Below, piece by piece: positions 1-45,585 of a stretch of 64,000 nt of DNA. The stretch is from Raineyella fluvialis (GTDB taxonomy: Bacteria; Actinomycetota; Actinomycetes; Propionibacteriales; Propionibacteriaceae), in the NCBI RefSeq assembly GCF_009646095.1, contig NZ_CP045725.1, positions 3,038,001 to 3,102,000 on the forward strand. Direction: 5' to 3'. Position 1 is the stretch's first letter, and each line of letters opens with the position of its first letter. The position numbers were made by a program, and so were the translations under genes. The notes beneath the pieces were generated by a model. It was given only the letters and a program-made list of their open reading frames with translations, was not told the DNA's origin and did no database searches.

Positions 1-74
1 ACGTCCTTGAGGACCGTACGGGCGGTCGGTCCGTCACCGTAGGTGTGGGTGACGTGGTCGGCCTCGATCAACAC
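1..74 (-). CDS. ABC transporter ATP-binding protein, N-terminal fragment, probable biotin ECF ATPase (bioM-like)
   Basis: Only the first ~25 codons lie in the window; the gene runs off the left edge. The reading begins at a GTG (74-72) whose bases overlap the TGA stop of the upstream thiolase, implying translational coupling. The visible start, VLIEADHVTHTYGDG, is the usual first beta strand and A-loop tyrosine of an ABC ATPase; Walker motifs lie outside the window. Its position in the same operon as bioY makes the BioM-type ATPase of a biotin energy-coupling-factor transporter the best reading. That is inference from context, since so short a piece cannot separate BioM from other ABC ATPases. 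Confidence 0.6.
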   Translation of the reverse strand, partial: MLIEADHVTHTYGDGPTARTVLKD

Positions 75-1140: not shown

Positions 1141-1749
1141 TCAGGCCTGGACGTTGTGAGGCGTTGCCTCGACGGTCGGCTGCTTGCCGCGCCAGGGGAG
1201 CAAGCCGGGGTAGGCGGCGTGGACACCCTTGGCGATCAGCGTCGCGGCCACGACCTTGATGGCGTCACCGATCAGGTAGGGCAGGTTGGCTGCGATGGCG
1301 GCCGGCAGGGAGAGGTGCGCGACGGCCATCAGGCCGAGGATGCCGAAGGCGTACATCAGGACCATGCCGCCGAGAACGTTGATCAGCAGGCCCCACAGGA
1401 CGGAGTAGGGAGCCCCCTTGCGGTAGGTGAGCCAACCGATCACGCCGGAGCAGACGACGTACCCGACGAGGAAGCCGACGCTCGGGCCGGCGAAGACCCC
1501 GATGCCACCCCGGCCGCCCGACAGCAGCGGCAGACCGATCGCGACCAGCGCCAGGAACAGCAGCTGGGACAGGAAGGCACGCCGGCCGCCCAGGATCGTG
1601 CCGGCGAGGATGACGCCGAACGACTGCGCGGTGATCGGCGCGGGGGAGAACGGCGTGTAGAACGCGGGGATCAGGCCGAGGGCGGCGGTGACGCCGGCGA
1701 AGACAGCGATCAACGCGAGGTCACGGGCGGGGATGCGGGTCTGGGCCAC
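1141..1749 (-). CDS. bioY: BioY, substrate-binding membrane subunit of the biotin transporter
   Basis: A 202-residue integral membrane protein with about six hydrophobic segments, matching the BioY S-component of energy-coupling-factor transporters, which binds biotin and works with an ATPase and a transmembrane partner. Family hallmarks visible are the N-terminal LALIAVFAGVTAALG helix, the PFSPAPITAQSFGV stretch (residues ~33-46) and GPSVGFLVGYV (~88-98). Translation starts at GTG 1749 after an AAGGAC ribosome site. It is the first gene of a minus-strand operon followed by the thiolase-like gene and the ATPase. A tandem palindrome 60-90 bases upstream is a likely repressor site. Confidence 0.93.
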   Translation of the reverse strand: MAQTRIPARDLALIAVFAGVTAALGLIPAFYTPFSPAPITAQSFGVILAGTILGGRRAFLSQLLFLALVAIGLPLLSGGRGGIGVFAGPSVGFLVGYVVCSGVIGWLTYRKGAPYSVLWGLLINVLGGMVLMYAFGILGLMAVAHLSLPAAIAANLPYLIGDAIKVVAATLIAKGVHAAYPGLLPWRGKQPTVEATPHNVQA

Positions 1750-1807: not shown

Positions 1808-1838
1808 TGTACACCGTTCAGTAGATGAACACTGTTCA
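1808..1838 (-). promoter_or_regulatory. Tandem BioQ-like operator upstream of bioY
   Basis: Read in the direction of bioY, the perfect palindrome TGAACAGTGTTCA (1838-1826) is followed by a weaker copy, TGAACGGTGTACA (1820-1808). The centres are 18 bases apart. The pattern TGAAC-N3-GTTNN resembles the motif reported for the actinobacterial TetR-type biotin regulator BioQ (TGAACN3GTTAC). It lies 60-90 bases before the bioY start and touches the patatin stop codon. The strong copy recurs unchanged at 43347-43359 before the ligase-thiolase operon. Assignment to BioQ is inference; no bioQ gene is visible here. Confidence 0.7.
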
Positions 1839-41221: not shown

Positions 41222-41914
41222 TCACTCCGGCAGCAGGGTGGACGCGAGGAAGCGGTAGGCCAGCTCGATGTAGGCGTCCGTCGGCCATCCCCGGTGCAGG
41301 ACGAGGGACTCGTAGAGCTCGCCCGCGACGAGCAGGAGGATGTCGCGCACCTGGTCGGCCGTCAGGCCGGGGCGTACGTGGCCGCCCTCGATCAGGTAGG
41401 CGGCGTTGTGCGTCATCCGTGCCTCCCGCTGCCGCTCAACCTCAGTGAACATGCGGGCAGCGTCCGCGTCCACCTGGGCCGCCGCCCTCATCATCGCCTG
41501 GAGGGGGGCACCCAATTCGCTCACTTCGGCGGAGAGCACGGCCCAATTGCGCAGGATGACCCGCGGGTCGTGTGCGGAGGAGGAGACCTCGTCCGATCGG
41601 GTGTACGCCGGACGCTCGCCACGGCCGGCCAGCGCCCGGTCCCACACTGCGGCGGCCAGCTCCGCCTTGGAGCCGAACGCCTTGTAGATGAACTCGGGGC
41701 TGACCTCGGCGTCCCGGGCGACCTGGGCCACGGTCGTCGCCACGAAGCCGTCGGAGAGGAATCGAGCCCGGGCGGCGTCCAGGACCAGGAGGCGCCGCTT
41801 CTCCGCCGCCTCCCGACGACCGGCGCTGTCGTACCGGCGGGCGCTCCTCTGCGCAGCCGGCCGACTCCGTGGGCCAGTCCGGGCCCTGTTCGCCCCCTTG
41901 AATTCGTGGTCCAT
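41222..41914 (-). CDS. TetR-family transcriptional regulator
   Basis: A 230-residue TetR-type repressor. The helix-turn-helix is VLDAARARFLSDGFVATTVA followed by QVARDAEVSPEFIYKAFGSK. ATG 41914 (MDHEFKGANRAR) is preferred because longer readings would cross the operator. An Arg-rich tail precedes the DNA-binding domain. It is divergent from a SnoaL-like/NAD-binding operon and separated from it by a perfect palindrome at 41931-41956, so it very probably represses both. The ligand is unknown. Confidence 0.9.
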   Translation of the reverse strand: MDHEFKGANRARTGPRSRPAAQRSARRYDSAGRREAAEKRRLLVLDAARARFLSDGFVATTVAQVARDAEVSPEFIYKAFGSKAELAAAVWDRALAGRGERPAYTRSDEVSSSAHDPRVILRNWAVLSAEVSELGAPLQAMMRAAAQVDADAARMFTEVERQREARMTHNAAYLIEGGHVRPGLTADQVRDILLLVAGELYESLVLHRGWPTDAYIELAYRFLASTLLPE

Positions 41915-41930
41915 GGGATGCATCCTAGCT

Positions 41931-41956
41931 ATTGGATACAAATAACTGTATCCAAT
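41931..41956. promoter_or_regulatory. Perfect palindromic operator between tetR and the SnoaL/NAD-binding operon
   Basis: ATTGGATACA (41931-41940) and its exact complement TGTATCCAAT (41947-41956) flank AATAAC. The 10-bp arms without mismatch, in an AT-rich island 17 bases from each start codon, are typical of a TetR operator. Confidence 0.8.
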
Positions 41957-41973
41957 GTCCGACGGAGGGCACC

Positions 41974-42420
41974 ATGTCCCAGATCCAGGGCCTGCCACCG
42001 ACGCTCGAGCGTCTGGTGACCGTCACCAACCAGCATGACCTCGATGGCTTGGTCGCGTGTTTCGCCGACGACTACCGCCTCGTCATGCCCAACCATCCTT
42101 CTCGCAACTTCGTTGGCCCCGGCCAGGTCCGACGCAACTGGGAACAGTTCTTCCGGGTCATCCCCGACATCACGACCACCATCAGGGCGGTGGCCGCAGG
42201 GCGCGACGACCAGTGGTGGACCGAGTGGGAGATGACCGGCACCCGACTCGACGGCGCGCCCCACCTCATGCGCGGCGTGATGATCTTCACCGTCGGCTCG
42301 GGTGAGTCCGATCTCATCCGCGCCAACCGCTTCTACGTGGAGCCGACCGATCCGGAGGGCTCTGGATCCGGCATCGACGCCGCGGTGGCGGCGCTGGTCG
42401 GGGGAGGTGAGTCCCGATGA
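41974..42420 (+). CDS. SnoaL/NTF2-like protein
   Basis: A 148-residue cone-shaped fold protein (MSQIQGLPPTLERLVTVTNQ, HDLDGLVACFADDYRLVMPN, FVGPGQVRRNWEQFF). Members are polyketide cyclases, isomerases or ester hydrolases with a hydrophobic pocket. ATG 41974 follows GGAGGG. It overlaps the next gene by four bases (ATGA) and is controlled with it by the divergent TetR protein. Confidence 0.82.
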   Translation: MSQIQGLPPTLERLVTVTNQHDLDGLVACFADDYRLVMPNHPSRNFVGPGQVRRNWEQFFRVIPDITTTIRAVAAGRDDQWWTEWEMTGTRLDGAPHLMRGVMIFTVGSGESDLIRANRFYVEPTDPEGSGSGIDAAVAALVGGGESR

Positions 42421-43310
42421 TCAGCATCGTGGGTGGGACGGGTCGCCTCGGTGGCCTCGTCGCCGTCAGGCTGCTCGCCGACGGCCACCGAGTTCGGCTG
42501 ATCTCGCGGCAAGCTCATGCAGATATGCCGCAGGGTGCGGAGTTCGTGGCCGCCGATGTGCGTCGGCCCGAGACCCTGACGGCTGCACTCAGCGGCTCAC
42601 GGGTGGTGGTGGCCGCCATGCACGGCGTGGATCCGGCCTCGGGGGAGTCGCCGGCCGAGGTTGATCGGGACGGCAGCACCGCACTCTTCGCGGCCGCCCG
42701 GGCGGAGGGTGCCGACATTGTGTTCGTCTCGATCCGTGGGGCCTCAGCGGACCATCCGATGGAGCTTGTCCGGATGAAAGGCCTCGCCGAGCAGGCGCTG
42801 CGCGCGGGCGAGTCGGCCCGGAAGGACTGGACGATCGTGCGGCCCACCGCTTACGTCGAGACCTGGGCAGATCTGATCCGGCAGACAGCTGCCCCTCGAG
42901 GGGTTCCGACGGTCTTCGGTAAGGGGCTGAATCCGATGAACTTCGTCACCGTGAACGATGCGGCGGTGGCCGTGACACGCGCCGTCACCGACGCGGGTCT
43001 GCGGGGCTCGGTGATCGACGTCGGAGGGCCGCAGGACCTCACCATGGTCGAACTCGCGCGCCTGGTCACGCATCAGCAGAAGGTCAACCACGTACCGCGC
43101 GTCATGCTGCGCATCCTGGGGACGGTGCTGGCCTCTGCCAAACCCGCCCAGGCCAGGCTGATCCGGATGAGTCTGCAGATGGACACGCTGCCCTTGACCT
43201 TCGACCCGGGCCCGGTCCGTGAGGCGTTTCCCTGGCTGCCCTGCACCCCGGTGCAGGAGGCCCTTGCGGGGGCAGGAGGAGTTGATCGCCGGCCTCGAAC
43301 GGCAGCGTGA
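42417..43310 (+). CDS. NAD(P)-binding NmrA/SDR-type protein
   Basis: A 297-residue atypical short-chain dehydrogenase. The N-terminal ISIVGGTGRLGGLVAVRLLA is the dinucleotide fold; SIRGASADHPMELVRMKGLA and IVRPTAYVETWADLIRQT are the NmrA-like middle. No classical YxxxK pair is clear. Start ATG 42417 overlaps the SnoaL gene. Probably a reductase or redox sensor acting with it. Confidence 0.8.
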   Translation: MISIVGGTGRLGGLVAVRLLADGHRVRLISRQAHADMPQGAEFVAADVRRPETLTAALSGSRVVVAAMHGVDPASGESPAEVDRDGSTALFAAARAEGADIVFVSIRGASADHPMELVRMKGLAEQALRAGESARKDWTIVRPTAYVETWADLIRQTAAPRGVPTVFGKGLNPMNFVTVNDAAVAVTRAVTDAGLRGSVIDVGGPQDLTMVELARLVTHQQKVNHVPRVMLRILGTVLASAKPAQARLIRMSLQMDTLPLTFDPGPVREAFPWLPCTPVQEALAGAGGVDRRPRTAA

Positions 43311-43346
43311 CTCGATCCGCACCTCGGACGGCGCCCTTCCCTCGAC

Positions 43347-43359
43347 TGAACAGTGTTCA
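43347..43359 (+). promoter_or_regulatory. BioQ-like operator upstream of the acyl-CoA ligase-thiolase operon
   Basis: The palindrome TGAACAGTGTTCA is identical, and in the same orientation relative to its genes, to the strong site before bioY (1838-1826 on the minus strand). It lies 38 bases before the ligase start. I noticed no third strong copy when reading the window. This suggests common control of both operons by one regulator, probably BioQ. Confidence 0.7.
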
Positions 43360-43396
43360 AATAGGTGATGACAGGTCGACCCGAGCGGGAGGTTCG

Positions 43397-44443
43397 ATGA
43401 GGGCAGGCCGAGACGGCATGGATCCTGACGATCCCCACGGTGCACCAGTCCGCGTGCTCGAGCGCGCGGATCCGGTGGCCGCGTTCTGGCAGGCTCATCG
43501 GGAAGGCGCCGACATCGCGCTCGCGACGTCGGGCACCACGTCCGGGACACCGCGCACCATCGTCCGGACCACCGCCTCCTGGGTGGACAGCTTCCCCGCG
43601 TGTGCACAGCGCCTCCAGCTCCAGACGTCCAGCCGGTTCTGGATCCCCGGCCCGTTGGCGGCCACCATGAACCTCTTCGCCGCCTGCCTGGCCACGTCAG
43701 TGGGTGCGGCGTGGAGCACCGAGCCGGCCGGCTGCACCCACGCCCAACTGACACCGACCCAGCTTCGTCGGCTGCTCGAGGACGCGCCGACTCCCGGCCT
43801 GCACGTCCTGGTCGCCGGTGATGCCCTCGAGCCGTCGCTGCGCCGGCTGGCCGAAGGTGCGGGGCTGTTGATCGACCACTACTACGGTGCCGCGGAACTG
43901 TCCCTGATCGCCTGGGGGCACGACGCCGGCGACCTGCGCCTCTTCGACGAGGTGAGCGCCGAAGCGCGAGAAGGGACCCTGTGGGTCCGTTCGCCCTGGT
44001 TGTCACGCCTCGTCACCGACGACCGGGGCTTCGCCACCGTCGGGGACCTGGTGCGCCTGGACGGTGACCACGTCGAGGTCCTCGGCCGCCCCGGGTCGGC
44101 CACCACGGCCGGGGCGACCGTGGAGCTGGCACCGATCGAGGCCGAATTGCAGGGTCACAGTCGCGGACGGCTCGTCGTCGTCGCCGTGCCCGACGGCCGG
44201 GTCGGGCAGGTGATCTGCTGTGCGACCACTGCCCAGGACCGCGCTAGCGTGCGGCAGTGGGCCCGTACGCACCTGACAGGCGCCCGGCGTCCTCGACGAT
44301 GGATCGTACGGGAGCACCTGCCGATCACGCCGACGGGGAAGATCGACCGTACGCGGCTGGCCGACGAGATCGTGGCTGGCGACCGTCGGCGACAGGCCGC
44401 CCGGACGCGGCCACGACCGCAGGATGAAGGGGAACGTGGATGA
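43397..44443 (+). CDS. Short acyl-CoA ligase (ANL superfamily), biotin-regulon candidate
   Basis: A 348-residue adenylate-forming enzyme. The phosphate-binding loop is ATSGTTSGTPRTIVRTTASW near residue 42. HYYGAAELSLIAWG is motif A5, TVGDLVRLDGDHVEVLGR motifs A7-A8, and ITPTGKIDRTRL carries the invariant A10 Lys. It lacks about 120-150 N-terminal residues of a full ligase, like short MenE-type enzymes. ATG 43397 follows GGGAGG; longer readings would cross the operator. It overlaps the thiolase gene by four bases. B. subtilis has an acyl-CoA ligase/thiolase pair (yhfT-yhfS) beside its bioY homologue, so a biotin-precursor or acyl-CoA role is a reasonable inference. The substrate is unknown. 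Confidence 0.83.
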   Translation: MRAGRDGMDPDDPHGAPVRVLERADPVAAFWQAHREGADIALATSGTTSGTPRTIVRTTASWVDSFPACAQRLQLQTSSRFWIPGPLAATMNLFAACLATSVGAAWSTEPAGCTHAQLTPTQLRRLLEDAPTPGLHVLVAGDALEPSLRRLAEGAGLLIDHYYGAAELSLIAWGHDAGDLRLFDEVSAEAREGTLWVRSPWLSRLVTDDRGFATVGDLVRLDGDHVEVLGRPGSATTAGATVELAPIEAELQGHSRGRLVVVAVPDGRVGQVICCATTAQDRASVRQWARTHLTGARRPRRWIVREHLPITPTGKIDRTRLADEIVAGDRRRQAARTRPRPQDEGERG

Positions 44444-45585
44444 GGGATCCGGAGGAGTGCCCGGTCATCGTCGACGCGTTGCGCACGCCGATCGGCACCG
44501 TCGGCGGAGCCCTGCGCGCGATCAGTGCCGGTGATCTGCTGGCGCCGGTCCTGGCGGAGCTGGCCGACCACTGCGACGCTCCGATCGACGAGGTCGTGAT
44601 CGGCAACATCCGCGGCCCCGGTGGCAATCCGGCGCGCGTGGCGACACTGGCGGCGGGACTGGATGTCGCGACGCCGGCCGTGACGATCGACCGGCAGTGC
44701 GGTTCCGGGATGGCGGCCATCGAGTACAGCGTGGCGATGCTGAGCGGACCACGACAGGGTTTCCAGATCGCCGGGGGCACCCAGTCCGCCAGCACCCAGC
44801 CGCTCACCTTCTGGCCGGCAGCGAGCCCGGACGACGAGCCGCGGCAGTACTTCCGGGCGCCGTTCACCGACGCCGGACATGCCGACCCCGAGATGGGGGC
44901 CGCGGCGGATCTGCTGTCCGCCGAGCATGGCATCGGCCGGGAGCGCCAGGATGCGTACGCCGCCCGCTCCCACCAGCGCGCGGTGACGAGCGCCGATGCG
45001 GGGGCCTTCGCAGGCGAACTCGTGCCTGTCGGCGGCCTGGACCGGGACGAGCGTCCCCGCCGCGGGTTCACTACGCAACGGCTGGCCCGCTTCCGCCCCG
45101 CCTTCACCCCGGAGGGCACCGCCACGGCCGCCAACAGTTGCGGCGTCAACGACGGTGCGGCCGCCGTGCTCATCTGCGATGGGAGGACCGCCGCGCGACG
45201 CGGGTTGCCTGGACTGCGAGTCCTGGACGCGGTCACCGTCGGCTGTGATCCCGAGCGTCCCGGCTGGGGCATCGTCCCGGCAGTGCAGTGGTTGGTCGAA
45301 CGTTCCGGGGTCCACCTCGACGACGTGGACCTGCTGGACTTCAATGAGGCCTTCGCCGGCCAGGTGCTCAGCTGCCTTGACGCCCTGGGCATCGATGAGC
45401 TTCGGAACTGCCCGCAAGGTGGAGCCATCGCCCTCGGGCATCCCTGGGCGGCCACCGGGGCGGTTCAGTTGACCCGGATGTTTACCCAGATGGTTCGGCA
45501 CAACACGACGGGAGCACGGCTCGGTCTGGCCGCCATCGCCATTGGTGGGGGACAGGGCAGCGCGATGCTCGTCGAGGCCGTCTGA
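44440..45585 (+). CDS. Thiolase family protein with nucleophilic Cys but no second Cys
   Basis: A 381-residue thiolase. The nucleophile Cys87 sits in DRQCGSGMAAI and His334 in ALGHPWAATGA; FNEAFAGQ is also present. The second catalytic Cys, normally two residues before the C-terminal GGG, is Ala367 (LAAIAIGGGQG). It could therefore load an acyl group but lacks the usual base for condensation or thiolysis. It shares the unusual GCDPxRxGWGIVPA segment with the bioY-operon thiolase at 68-1069, so the two are paralogues. It is coupled to the ligase by ATGA overlap. Confidence 0.87.
   Translation: MRDPEECPVIVDALRTPIGTVGGALRAISAGDLLAPVLAELADHCDAPIDEVVIGNIRGPGGNPARVATLAAGLDVATPAVTIDRQCGSGMAAIEYSVAMLSGPRQGFQIAGGTQSASTQPLTFWPAASPDDEPRQYFRAPFTDAGHADPEMGAAADLLSAEHGIGRERQDAYAARSHQRAVTSADAGAFAGELVPVGGLDRDERPRRGFTTQRLARFRPAFTPEGTATAANSCGVNDGAAAVLICDGRTAARRGLPGLRVLDAVTVGCDPERPGWGIVPAVQWLVERSGVHLDDVDLLDFNEAFAGQVLSCLDALGIDELRNCPQGGAIALGHPWAATGAVQLTRMFTQMVRHNTTGARLGLAAIAIGGGQGSAMLVEAV

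Follow-up and report, generated by a model that had tools for sequence, protein, structure and literature searches.

A BioQ-type operator shared by bioY and a ligase-thiolase operon in Raineyella fluvialis suggests a link between the pair and biotin

A ligase and a thiolase relative have been tied to biotin before, in Firmicutes, where the available text of PMC11089781 gives yhfS and yhfT as genes downstream of the biotin transporter gene bioY. In the part of PMC6391492 that was available, the yhfS-yhfT promoter of Staphylococcus aureus shows biotin-dependent repression by BirA. Corynebacterium BioQ binds sites of the form TGAAC-N3-GTTCA, in Propionibacterium, among others, bioQ lies in a cluster with bioB (excerpts of PMC3398298), and BioQ of Mycobacterium smegmatis regulates bioFD and bioB (excerpt of PMC9302846). 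Described here is a 64,000-nucleotide stretch of Raineyella fluvialis (contig NZ_CP045725.1, positions 3,038,001 to 3,102,000; hereafter the window), which carries bioY and, 41 kb away, an operon encoding an acyl-coenzyme A (CoA) ligase and a thiolase-like protein. As in the Corynebacterium and Mycobacterium regulons, TGAAC-N3-GTTCA sites occur together with a TetR regulator, whereas no ligase or thiolase is named in the available parts of the sources on those regulons. The sites make a strong sequence-based case that the ligase-thiolase operon belongs to the same regulon as bioY and bioB.

A sequence-only reading of the window had claimed that an identical 13-mer precedes bioY and the ligase-thiolase operon, and both copies of TGAACAGTGTTCA are indeed exact, with no third in the window (Table 1). 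They lie 76 bases from the bioY GTG (1749) and 37 bases from the ligase ATG, in keeping with the distances of about 77 and 38 bases that had been called plausible. When up to two mismatches to TGAACAGTGTTCA are allowed, the window holds five matches against a mean of 0.28 in shuffles. The genome is one contig of 3,649,865 bases, and across its 3.65 Mb TGAACANTGTTCA occurs exactly at only two places, the bioY and ligase-thiolase sites. The looser palindrome TGAACNNNGTTCA occurs exactly at three, the third (C1:593971-593983) lying in the gap that separates bioB from a divergently read TetR gene. Many copies ahead of unrelated genes were thus not found for the exact sites, all three of which stand at biotin-linked units. 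With at most one mismatch to TGAACNNNGTTCA there are 33 places (10 for the control), 30 of which have exactly one mismatch, among them the second, imperfect copy at bioY. A similar second copy is present in two other Raineyella genomes (G001 and G003) and there is none in G002.

Across four Raineyella genomes (G000-G003) the perfect palindrome stands ahead of bioB/bioQ, bioY, and the pair in all 12 units, with genome-wide totals of 3, 4, 3, and 6 exact palindromes, respectively. When the four ligase promoters are aligned on the site, 11 of its 13 columns are invariant, compared with 4 of the 120 columns upstream and 2 of the 20 downstream. The operator is preserved while the surrounding promoter is scrambled.

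The candidate regulator is encoded beside bioB, and the motif resembles a BioQ site. A search for bioQ and bio genes located bioB (383.9 bits against a cut-off of 225) and, divergent from it, a TetR gene (L134:11093-11647) with PF00440 (TetR_N) and PF02909 (TetR_C_1) domains, the third TGAACNNNGTTCA place lying between the two. No second relative of this protein was found in the genome at 1e-15. Its best PDB chains are 5yek (135.7 bits), 5xs9, and 5yej, the records of which state the TetR family only; we take these chains to be M. smegmatis BioQ. Binding of the site by BioQ and a response of the operon to biotin are very probable, judging from the shared site and from analogy with S. aureus, whose yhfS-yhfT promoter is repressed with biotin. 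As the control site is of the same type as those of bioY and the bioB genes, the pair is predicted to be on when biotin is short. The literature consulted, seen in part, describes neither such a pair within a BioQ regulon nor its missing cysteine (see below) or its function.

Table 1. Features of the biotin-linked loci, in window positions
Feature	Position	Strand	Basis
Predicted BioQ operator TGAACAGTGTTCA of ligase-thiolase operon	43347..43359	+	Exact match; kept in 4/4 Raineyella genomes
Short AMP-forming acyl-CoA ligase, 348 residues from ATG 43397	43397..44443	+	PF13193; NF005797 best NCBIfam match, far under cut-off
Thiolase-like protein, 381 residues	44440..45585	+	PF00108/PF02803; alignment to solved thiolases
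Predicted BioQ operator TGAACAGTGTTCA of bioY	1826..1838	-	Exact match
Second, imperfect predicted operator TGAACGGTGTACA of bioY	1808..1820	-	Pattern match
bioY, biotin transporter S component	1141..1749	-	PF02632, 123.6 bits against cut-off of 25; sole BioY match in genome
Short thiolase paralogue in bioY operon, 333 residues	68..1069	-	Sequence comparison; thiolase-fold model
bioM start (energy-coupling factor ATPase), runs off window; bioN beyond	1..74	-	L011:7382-8080, PF00005

Several other palindromes were noted at TetR genes. At C1:3203475-3203550 of the same genome (L012), a TetR gene adjoining a major facilitator superfamily exporter has at its start three imperfect TGAAC-type palindromes spaced by about 31 bases; they are probably the operator of another TetR protein. 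Within the window, at 41222-42420, a TetR gene diverges from SnoaL-like and NmrA-like genes with the palindrome-like ATTGGATAC...GTATCCAAT in between. In panel genome G056 a weak BioQ relative (61 bits; C1:3685389-3685979), far from bioY, is preceded by two exact tandem palindromes.

The pair was followed in two sets of sequences. The first is a panel of 57 genomes, including that of the window, in which a pair thiolase was defined by a score of at least 258 bits (the next match scores 212). The second, the named loci, comprises the best 80 among the matches listed, found by thiolase similarity. The pair thiolase is present in 18 panel genomes, and in all 18 the ligase adjoins it. bioY shares an operon with the pair in 11 of these, lies ~10 kb off in G014, and stands apart in six (G000-G003, G027, and G028), at ~58 kb in G001 and G002 and ~245 kb in G003. 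The ligase is directly upstream in 64 of the 80 named loci; in 58 of these 64 the stretch also holds bioY, which in 37 is on the strand of the pair. The bioY neighbourhoods of relatives, to which the sequence-only reading had pointed, therefore place the pair mostly near bioY and often inside a bioYMN operon, in many cases between bioY and bioM. Its proposal that the pair is remote from bioY yet in the same regulon holds in part: the pair shares the bioY site, at the level of sequence, but separation is confined to Raineyella and a few others and is not the rule. Raineyella is unusual in that the pair is apart from bioY yet retains the operator, with a cysteine-less paralogue present in the bioY operon.

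The actinobacterial named loci include members of Propionibacteriales, Nocardiaceae, Geodermatophilaceae, Pseudonocardiaceae, Streptosporangiaceae, Micrococcaceae, and Microbacteriaceae, with close homologues in Raineyella antarctica and other Raineyella. In G023 and G048 a perfect site precedes a single bioY-ligase-thiolase-bioMN operon. In G027 it precedes bioY; the contig of the pair ends within the ligase there, and its promoter is unreadable. Exact BioQ-type sites lie upstream of 12 of 59 bioY places, namely all nine listed Nocardiaceae, one Micromonospora, and two Microbacteriaceae. All nine Nocardiaceae (L168-L171, L175-L177, L180, and L188) also carry a second ligase-like gene ~400 bases after bioN, 27-31% identical to the window ligase.

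Alphaproteobacterial loci include those of Shinella, Ensifer, and Rhodobacteraceae. An annotated Azospirillum plasmid has the order bioM-bioN-bioY-ligase-thiolase, and an annotated Sinorhizobium meliloti plasmid places the thiolase after bioMNY, separated from it by an unannotated ligase match. At the L241 and L243 loci, the thiolase linked to bioMNY in S. meliloti has a thioesterase and a zinc alcohol dehydrogenase after it, and Rhizobium etli plasmid pC reads thioesterase-ligase-thiolase with no bioMNY. BioR boxes follow the pattern TTATMKATAA. Among eight alphaproteobacterial loci, one box with one mismatch was found directly before bioM (L191) and none there in the other seven.

The thiolase-like protein aligns over its full length with solved thiolases and keeps the nucleophile Cys87, the Asn302 of the NEAF motif, and His334, but the base cysteine of the CxG motif is replaced by Ala367. 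In Zoogloea thiolase this cysteine, Cys378, is the base for proton abstraction, according to the available part of PMC3406046. The nucleophile and the histidine of the GHP motif are present in all 64 ligase-linked named loci. The CxG cysteine is present in none of the 62 of these that are readable (two are not) and in none of 17 readable panel loci, where the window thiolase is represented by an incomplete copy (L002); this gives 0 of 79 together, with an overlap of one as G014 is the named locus L179. It is kept in all 13 named-locus thiolases whose stretch has no ligase, bioY, bioM, or bioN. Three further loci with no called ligase (L183, L201, and L215), two of them at a contig edge, have Ala or Gly at this position and adjoin bioY or bioM-bioN. 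The NEAF position is less constant, being Asn in 39, Thr in 15, and Val in 10 of the 64 ligase-linked loci. The paired type thus resembles the Zoogloea, PcaF, and BktB thiolases in its full-length sequence, nucleophile, and GHP histidine. It differs from them in lacking the base cysteine in every readable ligase-linked member, in replacing the NEAF Asn in 25 of 64, and in reading GHPW, GHPY, or GHPF instead of GHPL or GHPI.

As only the cysteine and the histidine are universal, the thiolase-like protein probably carries out Cys-His acyl transfer in place of the usual thiolysis or condensation of acetyl-CoA. Decarboxylating condensation of the β-ketoacyl synthase kind was considered as a general mechanism and set aside, given the Thr or Val in those 25 loci; clades that keep the NEAF Asn could still condense.

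In the partner ligase, a GGGAGG motif precedes ATG 43397, and from this start the protein is ~140 residues shorter than the annotated 488-residue Azospirillum ligase, its N-terminal part being missing. The P-loop is at residue 44, compared with residue 148 or later in seven alphaproteobacterial loci with a ligase match, although the latter positions were counted from the longest open frames and are upper bounds. The N-terminus is shortened in the ligases of Raineyella, G023, and G028. The P-loop is kept, and the catalytic C-terminal lysine (Lys296 of P0121) is invariant in 45 sequences. The predicted structure of P0121 (329 residues, from a later start) has a predicted local distance difference test score (pLDDT) of 91.9, and its best PDB fold is E. 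coli MenE (5c5h). Top Foldseek matches are ANL enzymes (MenE, oxalyl-CoA synthetase, and MatB) at ~20% identity. The model indicates an ANL fold, and the length comparison an incomplete N-terminal domain.

Between bioY and bioM lies a second thiolase relative that the sequence-only reading had overlooked, and bioM (best NCBIfam match TIGR04520, under its cut-off) is followed by bioN (L011:6771-7385; PF02361). This short paralogue shares 40-45% identity with the thiolase of the pair. Its nucleophile Cys is replaced by Arg, the NEAF Asn by Asp, and the CxG Cys by Ser, and three gaps of 6-21 alignment columns fall where other thiolases have a loop domain. The replacements are identical in the five copies read (the window's genome, two in G001, G002, and G003), and Arg takes the place of the nucleophile in all 13 full-length homologues of the short type in a protein search, two of them named Raineyella. 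The second G001 copy (L136:1497-2495) is ~13 kb from the bioY operon on the other strand. The model retains the thiolase fold (pLDDT 91.4), and the paralogue is predicted to be non-catalytic. Its conservation suggests that it is kept for something, and it is perhaps a partner subunit. Mycobacterial TLP1 likewise has a thiolase fold with the catalytic motifs lost and is 15% identical to Zoogloea thiolase, but no biotin link is mentioned for it in the available part of PMC3406046. In a tree of 41 hand-picked rows the short paralogue is placed next to the clade of Propionibacteriaceae pairs, with a branch length of 1.16 changes per column, and the window thiolase groups with other Raineyella copies and then with the G023 operon copy (both starred). 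As the branch is so long, the origin of the paralogue is unsure, as is any account in which the pair once stood in the bioY operon and then left it.

The Raineyella pair resembles yhfS-yhfT of S. aureus and Bacillus subtilis in that a ligase and a thiolase relative are tied to bioY and, as predicted here, repressed with biotin. It differs in having a BioQ-type site instead of a BirA site and in its ligase-thiolase order. Both proteins also fall far under the curated models, scoring 58 against a cut-off of 518 bits (NF005797) and 300 against 498 bits (NF005212), which are presumably the yhfT and yhfS models; the Firmicutes systems were compared through publications, not sequences. Adjacency and the bioY link make this a YhfT/YhfS-like module, but its genes are not curated equivalogs.

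The sequence-only reading had suggested first that the pair could supply a biotin precursor acyl-CoA, with salvage of biotin-related acids and fatty-acid remodelling as alternatives. Precursor supply would be a BioW- or BioZ-like role, and the site type shared with bioB fits this. The BioZ route offers a precedent, a β-ketoacyl synthase that can start biotin synthesis (available text of PMC11089781), and among the 18 panel genomes carrying the pair G003 and G023 alone have bioA and bioD, along with bioB. In the window's own genome, however, bioD has no match at 1e-5 and the best bioA match reaches 239 bits against a cut-off of 405; bioC, bioH, and bioW were not part of the search. There is no free-standing bioF either. 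The only bioF-like match is an oxoamine synthase domain at the end of a 1252-residue polyketide-type protein (L133:9361-13119) with acyltransferase and carrier parts, the domains being read by eye. The argument on bioF rests on this fusion, as the bioF cut-off is uninformative when none of the 57 panel genomes passes it. Open frames of similar length in G001 and G003 also carry a bioF-like match. Only five of the 18 pair genomes have bioB (G000-G003 and G023) and 13 have no bioB match, one of these (G005) being only 82% complete, so the pair does not need bioB. Precursor supply is largely refuted in this genome and is very improbable overall, and the absence of a recognisable bioA, bioD, and free-standing bioF makes salvage the more likely role.

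A salvage role is somewhat likely: the pair, under BioQ-type control, may recover a carboxylic acid related to biotin that BioY imports. BioQ would repress the operon when biotin is plentiful; when it is not, BioY would take up the acid, the ligase would turn it into a CoA ester, and the cysteine of the thiolase-like protein would then relay the acyl group. Action of the pair on BioY cargo is put at about even, judging from the position of the pair inside the transporter operon in many relatives. A bolder version is improbable. Here BioY would import bisnorbiotin-like breakdown products, the ligase would form the CoA ester, the thiolase without its base cysteine would add two carbons by decarboxylating condensation, and household reductases would rebuild biotin, with the paralogue as a regulatory or structural partner. 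If true, such side-chain repair would be a source of biotin needing none of bioF, bioA, bioD, or bioB. Fatty-acid scavenging that spares biotin is the main rival, possible but doubtful. Low biotin would mean low acetyl-CoA carboxylase, and the ligase would then activate exogenous fatty acids, the acyl groups of which the thiolase-like protein would load onto a carrier, sparing malonyl-CoA. Oleate is known to spare biotin, the pair occurs in genomes with and without bioB, and a thiolase fold reduced to Cys and His would suit such a loading step. Control by BirA in S. aureus (PMC6391492, in part) and by a BioQ-type site in Raineyella is also in line with it. Scavenging leaves the place of the pair between bioY and bioM unexplained, and the short ligase is nearest in fold to MenE, oxalyl-CoA synthetase, and MatB instead of long-chain ligases, a weak point at ~20% identity. 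It is highly unlikely that the genes encode an ordinary β-oxidation thiolase and ligase with a site that is coincidental or read by another TetR protein. Homologues are annotated as acetyl-CoA acetyltransferase, thiolase family protein, or CoA ligase, TetR palindromes can resemble each other, and a reversed control pattern has two exact places in the genome. Against this stand the three exact sites at three biotin-linked units, kept in four genomes, and the loss of the base cysteine.

Several observations weigh against salvage under BioQ control. With two places for the reversed control against three for the site, and 0.67 expected genome-wide from a mononucleotide estimate, the count of three alone proves little, and the argument is the location of the sites at biotin-linked promoters. 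At least one exact palindrome is present in 45 of the 57 panel genomes, and many of these palindromes surely have nothing to do with the pair. In the panel, nine of the 11 joint operons lack an exact site; six of these nine are without a BioQ match at 1e-15 and three have matches of at most 81 bits. In G028 a BioQ match reaches 100 bits, yet neither bioY nor the pair has an exact site. A search of 43250-43450 found no promoter-like (sigma-70-like) hexamers, and none was found of the terminators sought at the ligase start. Co-occurrence with bioY is not significant in the panel (18/18 vs. 32/39, p 0.085), absence of bioB is no commoner with the pair than without it (p 0.39), and the R. etli plasmid has the pair without bioMNY beside it. 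Finally, the substrate of the ligase is not named by its fold or sequence.

In actinobacteria and alphaproteobacteria the biotin transporter is accompanied by a ligase and a thiolase relative, an association also reported for Firmicutes. A biotin-repressor-type site away from bioY, hosts without recognisable biotin synthesis, and the lost base cysteine together narrow the question of what the pair does to which acid, taken up at low biotin, it activates and which acceptor receives the acyl group.

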